This document shows positions 4,506 through 37,332 of a stretch of 37,481 bases of DNA, in pieces. Below the pieces are notes generated by a model. That model searched no databases. It was given only the letters and a program-made list of their open reading frames with translations, and was not told the DNA's origin. The position numbers and the translations under genes are program-made. Each line of letters begins with the position of its first letter. Position 1 is the stretch's first letter. This stretch comes from Bacteroidota bacterium (lineage in GTDB: Bacteria; Bacteroidota; Bacteroidia; AKYH767-A; OLB10): contig JANXSD010000158.1 of assembly GCA_025352785.1 (NCBI GenBank), positions 1 through 37,481 of the forward strand, read 5' to 3'.

Positions 4506-5060
4506 ATGCGTTCAATTTGGACAGGTTCAATCAGTTTTGGATTAATTAATATTCCAGTAAAATTATTTTCGGCGGTACAGGAAAGCACACTCGATTTAGA
4601 TATGCTTGACATCAAAGACCATTCAAACATTAAATTTAAGCGTGTTAATGAAGCAAGAGGAAAGGAAGTTGCTTATGAAAATATTGTTAAAGGTTATAAG
4701 ATGGATAGTGGTTATGTAATTTTAGAAGAAGAAGATTTTGAAGCTGCAGATGCTATAAAAACAAAGACTATTGAAATTGTAAATTTTGTTAAAGAACAGG
4801 AAATTGATAGCCTCTATTATGAACAACCCTACTACCTTGAACCCGAAAAATCTGCGATGAAGGCTTATGCCTTGTTACGTGACGCTTTAGAATCTTCGGG
4901 TAAAGTAGGGGTTACCACATTTGTTTTGAGAAATAAAGAAGGGTTGGCAATTCTCAAGCCATATAAAAACGTAATAGTTTTAAATCGTATTCGATTTGCT
5001 CAGGAAATTAGAGAAACTTCTAAATTAATATTACCACCGATTTCTAAGACTAAAACATAA
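4506..5060 (+). CDS. ku: Ku protein, N-terminal part (ended by in-frame TAA)
   Basis: The 184 residues match the beta-barrel core of bacterial Ku, which binds DNA ends and recruits LigD in non-homologous end joining: [20 protein letters not shown] at the N-terminus, then the IKFKRVNE and [10 protein letters not shown] motifs and [12 protein letters not shown]. Bacterial Ku is usually about 250-290 residues. Here translation stops at TAA 5058-5060, but the same frame continues at once into the missing helical arm. The expected text at this point is a Lys-rich linker, so one base change from AAA to TAA would explain it. As read, the product lacks the C-terminal arm and tail. No LigD gene lies in the window. 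Confidence 0.85.
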
Positions 5061-5063
5061 GAA

Positions 5064-5285
5064 ATGGATATGGCGAATAAATTAGTTGAGCAACTTACAG
5101 AAAAATTCAATATTACTAAATACAAAGATTCCTATACTTCTAAACTATTAAAAATTATTAAAGAAAAATCTAAAGGGAAAAAAATATCAATTCCGAAAAT
5201 GAAAGTGGTACATAAACAAAATGACAATTTAATGGATATGTTAAAAGCAAGTTTAAGTACGAAAAAAATTAAATCAGCTAAATAA
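5064..5285 (+). CDS. ku: Ku protein, C-terminal arm, same frame after the stop
   Basis: Seventy-three residues in the same frame as the Ku N-terminal part, beginning at an ATG just 3 bases after the TAA. The text ([43 protein letters not shown]) is the usual C-terminal arm of bacterial Ku with its short basic tail. The sequence is well conserved, so the interruption is recent, artefactual or tolerated. Reinitiation at ATG 5064 or 5070 could make a two-piece Ku. The glycosylase start codon follows 1 base after this stop, so the cluster still reads as a coupled operon. Confidence 0.75.
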
Positions 5286-8112: not shown

Positions 8113-9411
8113 ATGGCCGAGATAGTACGCATGCCTAAGATGAGTGATACCATGACAGAAGGAGTTTTGGTAAAGTGGCATAAAAAAGTAGGTGATAAAG
8201 TGAAGATTGGAGAACTCATGGCTGAAATCGAAACGGATAAAGCAACGATGGAGTTTGAATCTTATTTTGACGGCGTATTGCTTAATATTGGTATTGAAGA
8301 AGGCAAAGCTGCACCTGTTGATAGTATCCTTGCAGTAATCGGAAAAGAAGGAGAAGATTTTAAAGCACAATTAGCTGCGGAACAAGCAAAAGCTGTTGCT
8401 CCCATCGCCGAAGTTGCTGCTGCTGTTCCTACTCCTGCACCTATCGCTTCAAAAGTAGCTGCTGAACCAATTTCAACAACTGTTGCGGTTCCAGTAAAAT
8501 CAGAACCACGTGTTGCAGATGTAACAACACCAGTGAACACAGATGATCGTGTAAAAGTATCTCCACTTGCAAAAAAAATTGCGCAAGAAAAAGGTGTTGA
8601 TCTCGGAATGTTAAAAGGCAGCGGTGATCATGGAAGAATTGTTAAACGTGACATCGACTGGTTCAAACAAGGAGCATTTGTTCAACCAGCGACCTTAGCA
8701 ACTGGAGCTATTACTTCTGAAAGTTTTGAGGAAGTTGGTGTTTCACAAATGCGCAAAACAATTGCGAAACGTCTTTCAGAAAGTATGTTTACAGCGCCAC
8801 ATTTTTATCTCACCATGGATATTGACATGGATGATGTGATACATGCACGTGAAAGTATTAATCAAATTAACTCTGTAAAAATATCGTTTAATGATTTTGT
8901 TGTAAAAGCTGTTGCTTCTTCTTTACGTCAGCATCCTGCGGTTAATTCATCATGGCTTGGAGATAGAATTCGTACTAATCATCATATTAATATTGGAATT
9001 GCTGTTGCTGTTGAAGATGGATTATTAGTTCCTGTGGTACGCTATGCAGATACTAAAACATTATCGCAAATAGCAACTGAAGTTAAAGCATACGCGCAAA
9101 AAGCAAAAGACAAAAAACTACAACCGCAAGATTGGGAAGGGAACACGTTTACCATCTCTAACTTAGGCATGTTTAACATTGAAGAGTTTACTGCGATCAT
9201 CAATACACCCGATGCATGTATTTTAGCCGTTGGCGCAATTAAACAAATTCCTGTTGTGAAAAACGGAATGGTGCAACCTGGTAATGTGATGAAAGTTACA
9301 CTAAGTTGTGATCATCGTGTTGTAGATGGTGTTGTAGGAGCAAAATTCTTGAATACGTTTAAAGCACTTTTAGAAAATCCAATTGTTTTACTAGGTCAAG
9401 GAAATATTTAA
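8113..9411 (+). CDS. pdhC: Pyruvate dehydrogenase E2, dihydrolipoyllysine acetyltransferase
   Basis: The 432-residue protein has the standard order. A lipoyl domain occupies residues 1-80, with the lipoylated Lys43 in ETDKATMEF. An Ala/Pro/Val-rich hinge spans about 88-140. A peripheral-subunit-binding domain lies at about 145-182 (SPLAKKIAQEKGVDL then GSGDHGRIVKRDI). A CoA-dependent acyltransferase domain fills the rest, with His401-x3-Asp405 (DHRVVDG) as the catalytic motif. It passes the acetyl group from E1 to CoA in the PDH complex core. Only one lipoyl domain is present. The partner pdhA is directly upstream, which supports pyruvate rather than branched-chain specificity. Confidence 0.94.
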   Translation: MAEIVRMPKMSDTMTEGVLVKWHKKVGDKVKIGELMAEIETDKATMEFESYFDGVLLNIGIEEGKAAPVDSILAVIGKEGEDFKAQLAAEQAKAVAPIAEVAAAVPTPAPIASKVAAEPISTTVAVPVKSEPRVADVTTPVNTDDRVKVSPLAKKIAQEKGVDLGMLKGSGDHGRIVKRDIDWFKQGAFVQPATLATGAITSESFEEVGVSQMRKTIAKRLSESMFTAPHFYLTMDIDMDDVIHARESINQINSVKISFNDFVVKAVASSLRQHPAVNSSWLGDRIRTNHHINIGIAVAVEDGLLVPVVRYADTKTLSQIATEVKAYAQKAKDKKLQPQDWEGNTFTISNLGMFNIEEFTAIINTPDACILAVGAIKQIPVVKNGMVQPGNVMKVTLSCDHRVVDGVVGAKFLNTFKALLENPIVLLGQGNI

Positions 9412-29442: not shown

Positions 29443-30975
29443 ATGAATCATCGTATCCATACTATGACCGATTATAAAACGGCATATCAAAACAGCGTAG
29501 CACAACCAGAAAAATTCTGGGCGGATATTGCGGAGAATTTTACGTGGATAAAACCTTGGGATGAAATATTAAAATGGGACTTCGATAATTTTAATGTAGA
29601 GTGGTTCAAAGGTGCTAAGTTGAATATCACTGAGAATTGTTTAGATCGACATCTTGAAACACGCGGAGATGAGGTTGCAATAATCTGGGAAGCGAATAAT
29701 CCTGATACGCCTTCTCGACATATTACTTACCGACAATTACATGCTGAAGTTTGTAAGGCTGCTAACATGTTAAAATCGATTGGTGTTATGAAAGGTGATC
29801 GTATTTGTATTTATTTACCGATGGTACCGGAGGCTGCTATTTCGATGCTTGCATGTGCACGTATTGGTGCGATACATTCAATTGTATTTGCAGGATTTTC
29901 TGCGCAGTCACTTTCGGATAGAATCAATGATTCCAATTGCGAATATGTAATCACTGCAGATGGTTCGTATCGTGGTGCAAAAGCGCTTGTGCTTAAAGAT
30001 ATTGTTGACGAAGCATTAACATCATGTGCATCTGTAAAGAATGTAATTGTTTTACGTCATACAATTTCTGAAATAAAATTTCAAACAGGAAGAGATTTAT
30101 GGTGGCATGAATTAATAAAAGATCAATCGGAAAATTGCGCACCCGAAATGATGGATGCAGAAGATATGTTATTCATACTTTATACTTCTGGATCAACAGG
30201 AAAACCAAAAGGTGTTGTGCATACTACTGCTGGTTACATGGTTTGGGCATGGTATACTTTTATAAATGTTTTTCAATATGAACATAAAGATATTTATTGG
30301 TGTACTGCTGATGTAGGTTGGATTACTGGACACTCTTACATTGTTTACGGACCATTACTCGCAGGAGGAACAACATTAATGTTCGAGGGGATCCCTACTT
30401 ATCCTGATGCAGGAAGATTCTGGCAAGTGATCGATAAACATAAAGTAAATATTTTTTACACAGCACCAACTGCCATTCGTTCTTTAATGGCTCATGGTGA
30501 TGCATTTGTTTATCCTTATTCATTAGCAACATTAAAAACGATCGGATCTGTTGGCGAACCTATCAACGAAGAAGCTTGGCAATGGTATTATGATAACATC
30601 GGAAAAGGAAATTGTTCGCTTATCGATACGTGGTGGCAAACCGAAACTGGTGGTGTAATGATTTCGCCTCTCGCGCATATTACTCCTGTGAAACCAACTT
30701 ATGCTACATTACCATTACCAGGAGTGCAAACAATTTTAGTTGATGCAAATGGTGTAGAATTAATTGGTGATAATGTTGAAGGAAATCTTTGCATTAAATT
30801 TCCATGGCCAGGAATGTTGCGCACTACTTACGGAGATCATGAACGTTGTCGCTTAAATTATTTTGCAACCTACAAAGGACTTTATTTTACTGGTGATGGA
30901 TGCCGTCGTGACAATGATGGTAATTATCGAATCATTGGTCGTGTTGATGATGTGATTAATGTTTCCGGATACTGA
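29443..30975 (+). CDS. acs: Acetyl-CoA synthetase, N-terminal domain (ended by in-frame TGA)
   Basis: The 510 residues match the large domain of Acs, which activates acetate to acetyl-CoA. The ATP motif YTSGSTGKPKG is intact. WCTADVGWITGHSYIVYGPL and DTWWQTETGG are Acs signatures, and W in DTWWQTE restricts the pocket to acetate. The hinge GRVDDVINVSGY is followed directly by TGA (30973-30975) where the family has an arginine (GHRLGT is usual), so CGA to TGA would explain it. Residues after the stop continue in frame. As read, the protein lacks the mobile C-terminal domain and catalytic lysine. An alternative start is ATG 29464. Confidence 0.88.
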   Translation: MNHRIHTMTDYKTAYQNSVAQPEKFWADIAENFTWIKPWDEILKWDFDNFNVEWFKGAKLNITENCLDRHLETRGDEVAIIWEANNPDTPSRHITYRQLHAEVCKAANMLKSIGVMKGDRICIYLPMVPEAAISMLACARIGAIHSIVFAGFSAQSLSDRINDSNCEYVITADGSYRGAKALVLKDIVDEALTSCASVKNVIVLRHTISEIKFQTGRDLWWHELIKDQSENCAPEMMDAEDMLFILYTSGSTGKPKGVVHTTAGYMVWAWYTFINVFQYEHKDIYWCTADVGWITGHSYIVYGPLLAGGTTLMFEGIPTYPDAGRFWQVIDKHKVNIFYTAPTAIRSLMAHGDAFVYPYSLATLKTIGSVGEPINEEAWQWYYDNIGKGNCSLIDTWWQTETGGVMISPLAHITPVKPTYATLPLPGVQTILVDANGVELIGDNVEGNLCIKFPWPGMLRTTYGDHERCRLNYFATYKGLYFTGDGCRRDNDGNYRIIGRVDDVINVSGY

Positions 30976-31338
30976 TTAGGAACAGTAGAAGTTGAAAATG
31001 CAATTAACGAACATCCGCATGTTATTGAATCGGCAGTGGTAGGTTATCCTCATGCAATTAAAGGTCAAGGAATTTATGCTTTTGTGATTTGTGATCACTT
31101 ACCTGAAAATGCGAATGGCTCGCGACAAGAAATTTTAGCTGTTGTAAGCAAAGCCATAGGACCTATTGCGAAGCCTGATAAAATTCAATTTGTGATTGGA
31201 CTTCCTAAAACACGATCGGGGAAAATCATGCGACGAATACTTCGTAAAATTGCAGAAGGTGAGATGTCGAATTTAGGTGATACCTCCACGCTATTAGATC
31301 CTGCTATTGTGGAAAGTATTAAAGAAGGGGCGTTGTAA
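30976..31338 (+). pseudogene. acs: Acetyl-CoA synthetase, C-terminal domain after the stop
   Basis: The same frame continues [36 protein letters not shown], then [17 protein letters not shown], the Acs C-terminal domain with the A10 lysine (Lys594 in read-through numbering), the residue usually regulated by acetylation. Read-through would give 631 residues, a normal Acs length. No ATG sits at the beginning; a GTG at 31036 is the first candidate for separate initiation and would omit part of the domain. Confidence 0.85.
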
Positions 31339-31416: not shown

Positions 31417-31455
31417 TAGAGTTTTGAGCTTTCAAAACTCTATTTAGATTGTTTT
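31417..31455 (+). terminator. Hairpin, probable terminator of acetyl-CoA synthetase
   Basis: A perfect 11-bp stem (TAGAGTTTTGA, loop GCTT, TCAAAACTCTA, 31417-31442) is followed by a T-rich tract (TTTAGATTGTTTTT). It starts 79 bases past the acs stop. If the promoter-like sequence upstream is used, it could instead be a leader hairpin. Confidence 0.6.
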
Positions 31456-31567: not shown

Positions 31568-33560
31568 ATGAAAGCAATTTTAACTAAGTACAAATTTGTT
31601 GGAGCATTAATTTTATTTTTTGCCCCCCCCCGCATTTGCACAAGTAGGTGTGGTAGTTAACCTTTCACATTTCGAAGGAGGTTATAACGTGAGTTGCAAC
31701 GGGGCTTACGATGGAACAATTGAAGCAATAGCAATAGGATCTAATGGGCCGTTTTTTTATGCTTGGAGTAATGGTGCAACTACCTCTTCAATACAAAATA
31801 TACCAGCAGGAGTTTATACGGTAACAGTCACTGATTTTAGCAATGCTACACATGCCAAAACTGTAGAATTATTTCAACCCGATGGTATGGCTGTTCATTT
31901 ATATGCGCATGAATTTGATGGAGGGACTAATATTTCAAAACAAGGAGAAAATGATGGCATAATCGAAGCTTCCGTTTTAGGTGGAACACCTCCATACAGT
32001 TATGTTTGGAGTAATGGACAAAACGATCCTCATATTGAAGGATTAGTTCAAGGAACATATTCATTATCAGTAACAGATGCAACCAACTGCACTGCAATTG
32101 CTAATGTTACGCTTATCGAACCCTCGCAATTGCATATTACAAGTATAACAAGCCAAACACACATTGGATACAATCTTACTTGTTTCAATTCACATAATGG
32201 CAATATTGATTTAAGTGTTTCCGGTGGAATACCGCCTTACAGATATCAATGGAATAATGGCAGTTTTGATGAGGACCAGACAAGTCTTGAAGCTGGTCAT
32301 TACATGGTTCGTGTGTTTGACAGAAATAATGCTGAGGTAGATGGGCAAATAACCTTAACACAACCTAACGAATTAATTCTAAGCTTTACAAAATCACAAT
32401 TTCAAGGAAACTATAATATAAGTTGTTATGGTTGTGCGAATGGAACCATCCAAGCAAATGTAATCGGCGGGGTAACTCCATACACTTATAATTGGGGCAC
32501 TTCGCAAACAACTCAAACTATTTCGAATTTAACTATAGGTTCGTATGGGATACATTTAATAGATGCAAATGGATGTATTGTAAGTAATGAAACACCAATG
32601 CTACAACCCGATCGTGAAGATTGGACCATGAGTGGAAATGCTAATACGAATTCTACAACACAATTTATTGGAACGAGTGATTCTACTGATTTGGTTTTTA
32701 AAACGAATAACATTGAATCTTTTCGAATAAAAAGTAATGGCGAACTAAAAGCTACTCATTTATCAGGAACTGGTGAATCTTTATTAGTAGTTGATAGTCT
32801 TGGCACCTTTTCAAGAAAGGGAATAATTGTAGTCAACCCTCCCAATGGCTGTACTAGCATAAATGTTTTGCCATGGTATCAAGCTCAATCAAATACTAAT
32901 GATGTTTGGAGTTGCAATCGACGATTTGGGTTAGGAACAAATGCTCCTACTGAAAAATTACACGTAGCAGGAAATTCGATTTTTACACTTGACCTTACAT
33001 CGTTGCAATTTATTCCAGTTCTAGTTAGCGCCCCTATGATAAAAGGAGTTAATTCTTATTCAACAAAAGCCAATCCTGATTACACATGGTATCAAGATAA
33101 CACTACGGGTATTTTTCACCCAAGCAATCATACTCTAGGATTTTCAGTTGATGGATCAGAAGCAATGCGTCTAATAAAAAACACAACTGGAGAAACAACT
33201 GTTTTAGTAGGATTTAGCGCTGCAAACCTTTCTTATTCTCTTGCATCTACGCCTTATAAAATGTTGGTAGATGGAAAATTTGGAGCTAATGAAATCTATT
33301 GCTCCATGGGAACACCAAGTTGGCCAGATTATGTTTTTAATAAAGAACATAAGCTGCTAAGCTTTGTAGAACTCAAGAATTTCTTAAAGGAAAATAAACA
33401 CTTACCTGGCATTCCAGCGGCTAATGAAATTGCAGAAACGGGAATGAACCTTGGCAAATTAGTTCCTGCATCTTACGAAAAAATTGAAGAACTTTACTTG
33501 TATGTTATTCAGTTAGAAGAGAGGATTAAAGAACTGGAACGGTATATTGAAAAAAAATAA
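31568..33560 (+). CDS. SprB-repeat secreted protein, out of frame at a poly-C tract
   Basis: ATG 31568 opens a signal peptide (MKAILTKYKFVGALILFF) that runs into nine C at 31623-31631. As read, this frame stops at TAA 31658-31660 after 30 residues. With one C fewer the frame reads APPAFAQVGVV, an ideal signal-peptidase site (AFA before Q), and continues for about 640 residues to 33560. The mature part has four ~79-residue SprB repeats (YNVSCNGAYDGTIEA type, ending YxVxVTD...P). A tail-fibre-like region follows, then a C-terminal block with LKENKHLPGIP and a coiled coil (EKIEELYLYVIQLEERIKEL). SprB repeats occur in adhesins secreted by Bacteroidota. No classical T9SS sorting domain is seen. 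Confidence 0.85.
31623..31631 (+). repeat. Poly-C tract (nine C) in a signal peptide
   Basis: Nine consecutive C in otherwise AT-rich coding DNA, located at codons 19-22 just before the predicted signal-peptidase site. Length 8 or 11 would put the gene in frame. Nine puts it out of frame. This is the form of a slipped-strand phase-variation tract. Confidence 0.85.
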
Positions 33561-33580: not shown

Positions 33581-35218
33581 ATGGAATTTAATTTTCAAAA
33601 GAGAAGTAAATTTTTGCTTTTTATTTTACTAATTATTATCGATTTATTTGCAAATGTAAATCTTATAAATGCACAACAATATGTGCAAAGAGAATTAGAT
33701 TTCAATGGTAGGGATACATATGCAAATGCTGTACTTCGTAATTCAGATTCAACTTATTATATTTTAGCTGCTACTTATGACACTTTGCCAAATCAAAAAC
33801 TTATTTTAATAAAGACAGATTCTTTATTAAATGTGAATTGGGCAAAAGGGTTTAATAAAGATTCAGCAAAATTAAATTCCGATAATATAATAAAAGCATC
33901 TGATACAACTTTGCTCATATTTGGAAGTTCGTATTCATCATCCGATCATACATCTTACATTATTAAAACTGACTTAAGCGGAGATACTTTATGGACAAGG
34001 GAAATTATGCTAAATGGTTACAGTGTTCATTTAAATTATCTCGATATAATAAGTGACACTTTGTTACTATATGGAAATTATAATGTTACTTTTAATGATT
34101 ACACTGCTAAATCCATTCTAGTTAAACTTAATATAAACAATGGTCAACTTATTGAAGCTACTTCATACAATTTGAGTTCACATATTACTACTTACTTTAG
34201 CAAAGCAGTAAGGTATTCGTCAATTAATTCAAAAGGATATTTTATAATGGGATTAGGCATTCGTGATACGTTATCTTATGTTACAGATTTAATATTAATC
34301 AAACTTAATAATGATTTATCCTTTAACAAGGCAATAGTTATTCCTTCAGATTCTAGACCGTCTTTATTTGATGAGTTAGCGATAAATGAAAATAGTAATA
34401 AAATACTTTGCGGATTTACTTATGCTGATACAATTGGGCAAATAGGTAAATATTGCTACGTTGAATTCGATAGCTTACTAAATATCAACTGGTCTATGAA
34501 ATATCACTTTACAAATGGCTACGCTGGATTGTCAGGTGTTAAATACGTTCCCAAGAATAATACAATAGTTTGCGCTGACAATTCTACGGTATATGAATTA
34601 GACAGTACAGGAAATATTCTTGGATTTAATAGAACTTATTCGGATCCATTATATCCTTTGATTTTAGGTAATTATTATGCTAGTGATTATCGTGATAATA
34701 AAATTAGTTGGATTGGCGAAGTTTCTAACAATCTTGCAGTTTTAAAGCATAAAATTCTAATTTCTGTAACTGACTTACATGGCATAGGGTGTAGTAATCA
34801 GACTACACAATCTCTGATTACTGACCCTTTAATCGTCTTTCCATATAATGATACTAGTTTAATCGCAACTTCTTTTATATTGGAAAGTGCAGAGATAATT
34901 CATGTATCAAACATTAGTCTTAACTCAAATCTAATTTGTAATACAGCTACTTCGATTAATTCAATTTTTGATAATTTAAATAATATAAATTTTTATCCTG
35001 ATCCATGTTTGGATGTACTGCAATTTAAAATTGATAATTCAATTCTTGGAAATAGTAGTATAAATATATTTTCATCCTTTGGCAATCTGATTTATGAAGG
35101 ACAAATTAGCGGAAATTCAGGCCAGATTGATATGTCTAGATTTCGATCAGGTGTTTATTTCATAAAAATTTCTAGTGCGTTATATTCAGGAAAATTTATT
35201 AAAATAATAAAATTATGA
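33581..35218 (+). CDS. T9SS-secreted protein with propeller-like repeats
   Basis: The 545-residue protein has a signal peptide (LLFILLIIIDLFANVNLINAQ) preceded by a basic start. The body shows repeated strands of the type YIIKTDLSGDTLWTR and LILIKTDSLLNVNWAKGFN, as in beta-propeller or delta-60-like repeat proteins. The last ~75 residues are a type A T9SS sorting domain: YPDPCLDVLQF, then INIFSSFGNLIYEGQ and RFRSGVYFIKI. It would be exported and attached to the surface or released. It starts 20 bases after the SprB-repeat gene, and its stop overlaps the next start (ATGA). Confidence 0.83.
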   Translation: MEFNFQKRSKFLLFILLIIIDLFANVNLINAQQYVQRELDFNGRDTYANAVLRNSDSTYYILAATYDTLPNQKLILIKTDSLLNVNWAKGFNKDSAKLNSDNIIKASDTTLLIFGSSYSSSDHTSYIIKTDLSGDTLWTREIMLNGYSVHLNYLDIISDTLLLYGNYNVTFNDYTAKSILVKLNINNGQLIEATSYNLSSHITTYFSKAVRYSSINSKGYFIMGLGIRDTLSYVTDLILIKLNNDLSFNKAIVIPSDSRPSLFDELAINENSNKILCGFTYADTIGQIGKYCYVEFDSLLNINWSMKYHFTNGYAGLSGVKYVPKNNTIVCADNSTVYELDSTGNILGFNRTYSDPLYPLILGNYYASDYRDNKISWIGEVSNNLAVLKHKILISVTDLHGIGCSNQTTQSLITDPLIVFPYNDTSLIATSFILESAEIIHVSNISLNSNLICNTATSINSIFDNLNNINFYPDPCLDVLQFKIDNSILGNSSINIFSSFGNLIYEGQISGNSGQIDMSRFRSGVYFIKISSALYSGKFIKIIKL

Positions 35219-37332
35219 TTAACAAATTAAAGTTCATTATGATTTTATTTTTGCAACTTTCTCTGGTGGTAGAAACGTATTCGCAAAACGTTATAAATCC
35301 ATATCAAAATATAATAGGAACTAGTATTCCTATATCGGATTGGGATGCTTATTTGCAATCTTGGTCAAATACTTATAATCCATTTCCATCTATTGGTCAT
35401 GCTCCTCCTTTTAGTGGAGAATACCAGATATTATTAGATAACAATTTTCCATGGATGCAATTTATTAATAATGGTAGTATAACTGTAACTTATCAGATGG
35501 AGGTTGTTTCCTTTCCATTTACAGTTCCATGTGCTACCACTGCTTCTGGTTGCTCATACAATCCTGTGAATCCTCCAATTCAAAGAGATTTATTCTTACC
35601 AACCGACCCCTATGATCCTAACAATAGACAATGGGGACAAATATCTAATATGCTTCCTGATTTTCTTCCATTAGATTGGTCAAATGTTGGTTCAAATAGA
35701 CAAACACTTATTTCAGACGCTTTTGTGAATAACCATCCGTATATCAGCACTACAAATGCAAAATTACTACCTCATACTATAATTAAACATACAATTAATG
35801 CGTATTGTTCTGGAACTTTATCTCCTTTTTCAACACTTTTATCCACTGTTTCTTGGTATTATGACAATACTAGAGGAAGAATGCGCAATTACCCTTTTTG
35901 CACTAGCAATTGTACTAATTCTTCAGCAGCATGGGATATTTGCTTTCTTCCATCAATTATTACTGATCATAATAATTTTAACCCGTATAGTTATAATTTA
36001 AATAATCAATTATTTGTTGATGGTATAATTAATTATTTCCTTTATTCAGAAATTCCTAACCCAAGCAATTGCACTAATGTAGGAACTGCTCTCCCAGCTC
36101 CTATTGATAACTTTAGAAGTACACAATCAACTTTTAATTTTATTTATCCTCCACCATACTCATTACTATCAGCACCAGCACTAAATTCAACAGGAACTGG
36201 GCTGGCTGGATATGAAACTTCATTTAATGCAACAACGAATTCATTAAATGGTTATCAGCAACATTACTACATCGATACTGATTTTGAATTAACGGATATA
36301 AATCCAATTGATAGAGTAATTTTCAACCCTAGCGATGTAACAATTACCGCATCTGATTTACATTTTCCTTCAGGCTATACTTTTAAAACTATTAGAGGAG
36401 TATATCCTTCAGTTGCTGAAGTTACGCGTGATGATACTCCGGAAAATGGTGGGCCGTTTATTGATCCGCGACAAGTTCCAGTTATAACTGATTTGCGTTG
36501 TGAAGATCCATTATTCCCGCACGATCCTGCTGTTCTTGATGATGCAAAATATAGTTCGTTATATCGTTTGGCAAGTGGCAGTAAATTAACCATTGATCCA
36601 TGCGTTACTGTTTATGATGCAGCTTTTATTTTAAATGCTGGAAGTACATTAGATTTCTCCAATTACAATTCATTTAGAGGAATGCCTCGTATTGCAATTG
36701 ATAGAAATGGTGGTCGTTTGATAAGGCGATTTGTTCCCAACAATGCAACTCAAACATTGTATTTGCAAAATGAAACCAGACCAGTGAATGAACCAAATGG
36801 GTATTTTATTGAAGGTAAAATTGAAGCAGGAAAAAATGTTGATGCGACTCAACCACCGGGAAATTACATTGTAGATGCTAATGCAGGATTGGAATTAGTG
36901 GCAAGTGAATATATTGCTTTTAAAGAAGGTTTTTCCTCTAAAGCAAATTCAAATCTAGTAGCACGAATTGATAATAATATTAGCATTCCACAATGTCGTA
37001 TCGCAAATTCAGGAAGTGGCAATCGAATGTCGTTAAATTCTAATTCAAGTCAACAACAGAATTTAAGCACTCAAGAGAAAAATAAATGTGATATTTTAAT
37101 TTATCCAAGCATTTTTAACTCGAATATTACAATAGATTTCCCGACAAGCACTGGGATAAAAAAGTTAGTGATTTTTGATGCACTTGGAAAAATCGTTTAT
37201 CATTTGAGTTCAGAAGATTTTTCTGCGCCAATTGAATTATCACAACTTAATGAGGGTATTTATTTCGTAAAAATCGATAGTGAAAGCTGTAATTCATTTT
37301 CTAAAACAATTGTAAAAAATGAAAGGAAGTAA
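35215..37332 (+). CDS. T9SS-secreted protein of unknown function
   Basis: The 705-residue protein has a signal peptide (cleavage near ETYSQ). The N-terminal ~350 residues are Asn/Ser/Pro-rich with several cysteines (TVPCATTASGCSYNP, CTSNCTNSSAAWDICF) and resemble no family I know. The middle part (about 400-600) has beta-rich text such as LNAGSTLDFSNYNSFRG and DANAGLELVASEYIAFKEGF, as in surface proteins with stacked beta strands. The C-terminus is a type A T9SS sorting domain (IYPSIFNSNITIDFP, LVIFDALGKIVYHL, LNEGIYFVKI). It overlaps the upstream gene by four bases, so translation is coupled. Confidence 0.82.
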   Translation: MINKLKFIMILFLQLSLVVETYSQNVINPYQNIIGTSIPISDWDAYLQSWSNTYNPFPSIGHAPPFSGEYQILLDNNFPWMQFINNGSITVTYQMEVVSFPFTVPCATTASGCSYNPVNPPIQRDLFLPTDPYDPNNRQWGQISNMLPDFLPLDWSNVGSNRQTLISDAFVNNHPYISTTNAKLLPHTIIKHTINAYCSGTLSPFSTLLSTVSWYYDNTRGRMRNYPFCTSNCTNSSAAWDICFLPSIITDHNNFNPYSYNLNNQLFVDGIINYFLYSEIPNPSNCTNVGTALPAPIDNFRSTQSTFNFIYPPPYSLLSAPALNSTGTGLAGYETSFNATTNSLNGYQQHYYIDTDFELTDINPIDRVIFNPSDVTITASDLHFPSGYTFKTIRGVYPSVAEVTRDDTPENGGPFIDPRQVPVITDLRCEDPLFPHDPAVLDDAKYSSLYRLASGSKLTIDPCVTVYDAAFILNAGSTLDFSNYNSFRGMPRIAIDRNGGRLIRRFVPNNATQTLYLQNETRPVNEPNGYFIEGKIEAGKNVDATQPPGNYIVDANAGLELVASEYIAFKEGFSSKANSNLVARIDNNISIPQCRIANSGSGNRMSLNSNSSQQQNLSTQEKNKCDILIYPSIFNSNITIDFPTSTGIKKLVIFDALGKIVYHLSSEDFSAPIELSQLNEGIYFVKIDSESCNSFSKTIVKNERK

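Follow-up and report, generated by a model that had tools for sequence, protein, structure and literature searches.

Does a run of nine cytosines near the start of a surface-protein gene mark a gene broken by a frameshift, or a tract whose length turns the gene on and off? One locus of a Bacteroidota bacterium raises this question. It lies in the window, the whole stretch of 37,481 nucleotides of contig JANXSD010000158.1 that was analysed.

The poly-C tract and its reading frames

The run of nine C (C9) occupies positions 31623-31631 of the plus strand, at about codons 19-21 of the frame that begins with the ATG at 31568. The features of the switch region are the following.

31568..31640, plus strand: signal-peptide segment MKAILTKYKFVGALILFFAPP-AFA when the tract is read in frame, with the cleavage site AFA-Q placed by inspection
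31568..31660, plus strand: frame of the OFF state from the ATG, 30 codons and a stop
31623..31631, plus strand: poly-C tract (C9), the proposed slipped-strand switch and the sole C or G run longer than 5 in the window
31632..33560, plus strand: remainder of the surface-protein gene 3' of the tract, open for 642 codons

Tract lengths of 7, 8, 9, 10 and 11 C give 25, 663, 30, 26 and 664 codons from the ATG at 31568. A change of length toggles the product between 30 and 663 amino acids. With 8 or 11 C, the N-terminus reads MKAILTKYKFVGALILFFAPPAFA-Q. It is a normal-looking signal peptide, and the tract falls in its C-terminal part. The first-pass annotation had placed nine C just before a signal-peptidase site and had found the frame dead after 30 residues; both statements are correct. 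It had also proposed that eight C would lead into a long repeat adhesin. The frame of 663 amino acids, with SprB repeats and a signal peptide, agrees with this, while the word adhesin reflects the domains only. A TTG at 31620 is also in frame with the gene body, and its product would have no signal peptide.

The same picture could come from a miscount in sequencing or assembly, the real tract being fixed in frame and the gene simply ON. Runs such as C9 are known to be prone to one-base errors. Poly-G artefacts also occur in the compared assemblies, as in G011, where a contig begins with more than 60 C, but the present tract lies 5.8 kb from a contig end. On the other hand, elsewhere in the window the A8-A9 runs inside genes keep the frame, as does the A8 at 8571 in an intact ORF of 432 amino acids. 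The other two damaged genes of the window, acs and Ku, carry nonsense substitutions instead of indels. A general homopolymer error of this assembly was therefore rejected. Moreover, independent assemblies repeatedly show differing tract lengths as well as each of the two OFF phases. Even a C8 fixed in frame would be prone to slippage in DNA this AT-rich, so an off-by-one count would leave the switch reading standing. We consider a miscount unlikely.

Long C and G runs in the window and in the genome

The window has a G+C content of about 34%. Its next-longest C run has 5 bases and its longest G run 4. The expected number of C-runs of at least 9 in the window is 0.004 under a first-order Markov model, a value that bears out the earlier remark that such a run is striking in AT-rich DNA. 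A homopolymer longer than base composition predicts is a mark of phase-variable genes mediated by simple sequence repeats (SSR), and C9 is such a homopolymer.

Pattern searches over the 3.46-Mb genome counted 55 exact C/G runs of length 6, 4 of length 7, 7 of length 8, 2 of length 9 and 2 of length 10. The tail of run lengths rises instead of decaying, from 55 to 4 and then to 11 at length 8 or more. Extrapolating the drop from 6 to 7 predicts about 0.3 runs in that last class. The Markov model, which predicts too many short runs, expects about 1.3 runs of at least 9 in the genome, and the 4 observed are only modestly above chance. Therefore, the shape of the distribution and the placement of the runs outweigh their number as an argument.

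Secreted-protein genes, the switch gene included, carry three of the four C/G runs of at least 9 at their 5' ends. The second is a C10 at codon 8 of a DUF7948/SBBP protein of 914 amino acids (C83:4009). The third is a G10 in a leader (MGGG) 5' of the signal peptide, in a protein of 586 amino acids with a weak T9SS sorting domain (C151:1967). All three genes are out of frame by one base. None of the seven C8 runs of this genome is at a 5' end, and most are intergenic or internal. The informative runs are those of length 9-10, not C8.

When the relatives are added, 14 of 31 runs of at least 9 lie at the 5' ends of genes whose products have a hydrophobic N-terminus, versus 2 of 30 C6 runs (Fisher p 0.001). 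The C151 gene was added to this count by hand, since an upstream frame is open there. The placement that the earlier reading called typical of switches is thus enriched among the long runs. One further run, a G8 about 45 codons into a secreted-protein gene (L139, C94:28352), was not counted as a switch. The start codon of this gene is also lost (ATA), and it looks like a true pseudogene adjoining an SSR.

Homologues and their tracts across the order

A search of 42 genomes of the order with the window protein's C-terminal half gave matches in 26, and 39 gene regions were read among these homologues. Most of the compared assemblies look like drafts or metagenome-assembled genomes. An ortholog search in the genus, which is represented by one genome, matched only the genome itself, and a named GTDB scan gave distant relatives only.

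In SprB-repeat homologues across the order, a C/G tract often lies within the signal peptide or shortly before it. The comparison with related genomes had been proposed as a check. It found tracts at this same place in several families, with lengths of 6-11 (one of 22) and mixed phases. Genome G002 has C6 and C9 in two SprB paralogues. Genome G021 has C7, C10 and C11 in three, which conserve the leader around the start codon but not the length of the tract. Likewise, there is a C8 in G037, a C10 in G028 and a G10 in each of three G030 paralogues. The SprB gene of G033 (L191, G033:C19) is preceded by C22 and long T runs. A tract of this length is exceptional and may be an assembly artefact.

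No tract was seen in the homologues without SprB repeats among the 39 regions, nor in some SprB homologues (L188-L190, L193, L196-L198, L223 and L224). A fixed non-repetitive sequence in all the relatives had been named as the outcome that would speak against a switch. Instead, homologues carry variable C/G runs. Differences in length between close homologues with conserved flanks were looked for in the relatives of the window gene and in another gene of its own genome. They are present in both: the 7, 10 and 11 C of G021, and the G10 of the C151 gene versus the G7 of its 69%-identical paralogue in C117.

Unrelated secreted families show the same arrangement. Five G003 paralogues have G10 or an equivalent, two G010 genes have C12 and C9, and a G002 gene has C10. 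In the class as a whole, 43 of 395 genomes contain the pattern ATGAAA-N3..30-C9, versus 18 with a reversed control pattern. In the order itself, it occurs in 8 of 16 sampled genomes, versus 2 with the reversed pattern. Many of the matches encode MK..(F/I)TPP followed by a signal peptide.

Two loci are described here on their own account. In G003 (L119, G003:C54:166000-177038), at least three secreted-protein paralogues form a tandem array with a spacing of about 3.5 kb. Each has G10 (or equivalent) in the leader, all are out of frame with the same offset, and two more copies lie on other contigs. In G011 (L135, G011:C3, ~86987), a response-regulator-like gene has nine G right after the start codon. 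It is possibly a phase-variable regulator.

Phase of the tracts and selection on the OFF frames

We tallied the phase of 30 tracts by hand, counting once any group of paralogues that shares one tract state. The loci had been picked by the tract and an open downstream frame, not by phase. Their lengths range from 6 to 14, once 22. Six tracts are ON, 15 are in the +1 phase and 9 in the -1 phase, a distribution not different from uniform (p 0.12). Such mixed phases fit random slippage, with some surplus of OFF, and argue against a fixed programmed frameshift.

That alternative would make the tract a site of programmed frameshifting or transcriptional slippage, where the apparently OFF gene always makes some full-length protein. 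Two observations suit it: 24 of the 30 assembled tracts put their gene out of frame, and one offset is common to all the G003 paralogues. However, a programmed site requires a constant offset. Both offsets and in-frame genes are found here, even among paralogues (L214, L216 and L204), and the tract length is far from constant. The mixed offsets among homologues rule it out as the main reading, and we regard it as highly improbable for the window gene.

Selection on the frames that are OFF in the assemblies was estimated in relatives, since the homologues of the window gene are too distant. Comparisons among paralogues that share the OFF state give dN/dS of 0.12-0.22 in G003, 0.20-0.34 in G021 and 0.19 in G002, with dS of 0.5-1.7. 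Purifying selection at this divergence means that these frames are used at times and are not permanently out of frame. It is the selection on OFF frames that is expected in SSR phase variation.

These values also bear on the reading that a recent frameshift killed the gene for good. The in-frame stops of acs (30973) and Ku (~5058), also in the window, point to some gene decay or strain mixture, which would suit a pseudogene. Nevertheless, 642 codons are still open 3' of the tract, and the lesion falls exactly within a recurrent repeat tract. Furthermore, out-of-frame relatives keep their low dN/dS up to a dS of about 1 and more. A permanently dead gene is very unlikely, and slippage in the tract is still the preferred reading.

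The SprB-repeat protein

The ON frame encodes the following domains.

31647..32609, plus strand: four SprB-repeat beta-sandwich (Ig-like) domains, from four stretches of Pfam PF13573 and the AlphaFold model
33363..33554, plus strand: C-terminal helices, a predicted coiled coil, from a model of moderate confidence

The four SprB repeats match PF13573 with E 4.6e-34 and 116.2 bits, versus a curated cut-off of 28. The AlphaFold model, built on 11 homologues, gives a confident chain of beta-sandwich domains at residues 10-330 (pLDDT mostly 80-93). Its middle part is poor, and the C-terminal coiled coil has moderate confidence. A conserved WPDYVF...LPG motif lies just 5' of this predicted coiled coil.

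The top four structure matches in the PDB are fragments of GhpA, the grappling-hook protein of Aureispira. This match is at the level of the domain fold only, with TM up to 0.41 and 12-17% identity, and a PDB sequence search with the product of the switch gene gave no match. T9SS sorting domains of type A, B or C were sought at the C-terminus of the protein and none was found. A weak Por_Secre_tail match at residues 51-81 lies within an SprB domain. From its domains, the protein would have a role at the surface or in adhesion.

Neighbouring genes

Three further features surround the switch gene.

31417..31442, plus strand: terminator-like hairpin after acs, a consensus match only
33581..35218, plus strand: downstream secreted protein with a T9SS sorting domain (PF18962), which starts 20 bp past the stop of the switch gene
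35215..37332, plus strand: second downstream secreted protein with a T9SS sorting domain, with a 4-bp overlap with the preceding gene

By its consensus, the hairpin may separate the switch gene from upstream transcription. A search for terminators within the switch gene and the two downstream genes found none. The gene at 33581..35218 is likely on the transcript of the switch gene.

The two interrupted genes of the window are observations apart. The acs gene (acetyl-CoA synthetase, 29443-31338) is interrupted by a TGA in frame (30973-30975) at the expected site of the motif VSGY(R). No second copy turned up in this genome, and 21 other genomes of the family have open frames of 601-707 amino acids. 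A Ku-type DNA repair gene (4506-5283) has an in-frame TAA at ~5058, after which the Ku sequence resumes in the same frame. It is odd to meet two nonsense changes among the conserved genes of a single window; strain mixture, gene decay or consensus error may be the cause.

A proposed contingency locus

Taken together, the tracts in homologues and in secreted-protein genes of the same genome, the mixed phases and the dN/dS of relatives support the candidate phase-variation switch of the first-pass annotation. The C9 run is probably a contingency locus that switches the SprB-repeat protein ON and OFF by slippage. Slipped-strand mispairing in replication would alter the number of C in the tract. 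Translation that starts at the ATG at 31568 would then either continue through the whole SprB-repeat surface protein, the ON state, or end some 30 codons on, the OFF state. It is the OFF state that the assembled genome shows.

Since the tract lies inside the signal peptide, the OFF frame would leave no exported fragment. The internal TTG is weak, and its product would not carry the signal peptide. The two following secreted-protein genes, in the same apparent transcription unit, could feel polarity from the switch gene. We infer from these sequences that the switching may be reversible in living cells.

The arrangement may also be wider than one gene. We slightly favour the reading that environmental Bacteroidota of this order have a 'phasome', a set of poly-C/poly-G switches at the very 5' start of genes from several unrelated secreted families. 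The leader of its candidate members is often MK..(F/I)TPP, encoded by ATT-ACC-CCC-CCC.

Comparison with known systems

Translational phase variation by homopolymers, or simple sequence repeats, is a classic mechanism. Poly-G/C switch tracts are found in hmbR and hpuA of Neisseria and in surface genes of Campylobacter and Helicobacter. Homopolymer phase variation has mostly been described in host-adapted pathogens. Like those SSR loci, the present ones have a homopolymer of C or G early in the coding sequence and are ON at every third length only. The products are at the surface, there are several loci per genome, and OFF is common. In contrast, the host is an environmental Bacteroidota whose tracts would affect secreted proteins, those with SprB repeats among them. 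Many tracts occupy codons 4-10 (MK..TPP) or part of the signal peptide, and the system is so far known from sequences.

The same phylum has another way of random control. A review attributes phase variation in Bacteroides to invertases that act by promoter inversion (PMC11868660). Surface structures are turned ON and OFF at random in that case, as proposed here; however, the present switch would change the frame by repeat length, without any recombinase. A survey of homopolymer tracts mentions neither Bacteroides nor Flavobacteria (PMC2831843).

Regarding the product, the four SprB repeats and the predicted Ig-like chain resemble the gliding adhesin SprB, related giant adhesins and GhpA. Unlike these, the protein has only about 660 residues, and a predicted coiled coil with the WPDYVF/LPG motif replaces the T9SS C-terminal domain. 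We found no description of homopolymer switching of SprB-type proteins in the literature searched, whose coverage left out most subscription journals. The mechanism is textbook; its application to secreted proteins of the SprB type, in an environmental order of Bacteroidota, looks new.

This use suggests that random switching of the surface pays outside hosts too, for example against phage or predators, or in attachment. In environmental, probably uncultured Bacteroidota, such switching would explain many 'broken' surface genes of their genomes. If the phasome is real, the set of surface proteins would vary at random from cell to cell; in this phylum, phase variation has been ascribed to DNA inversion.
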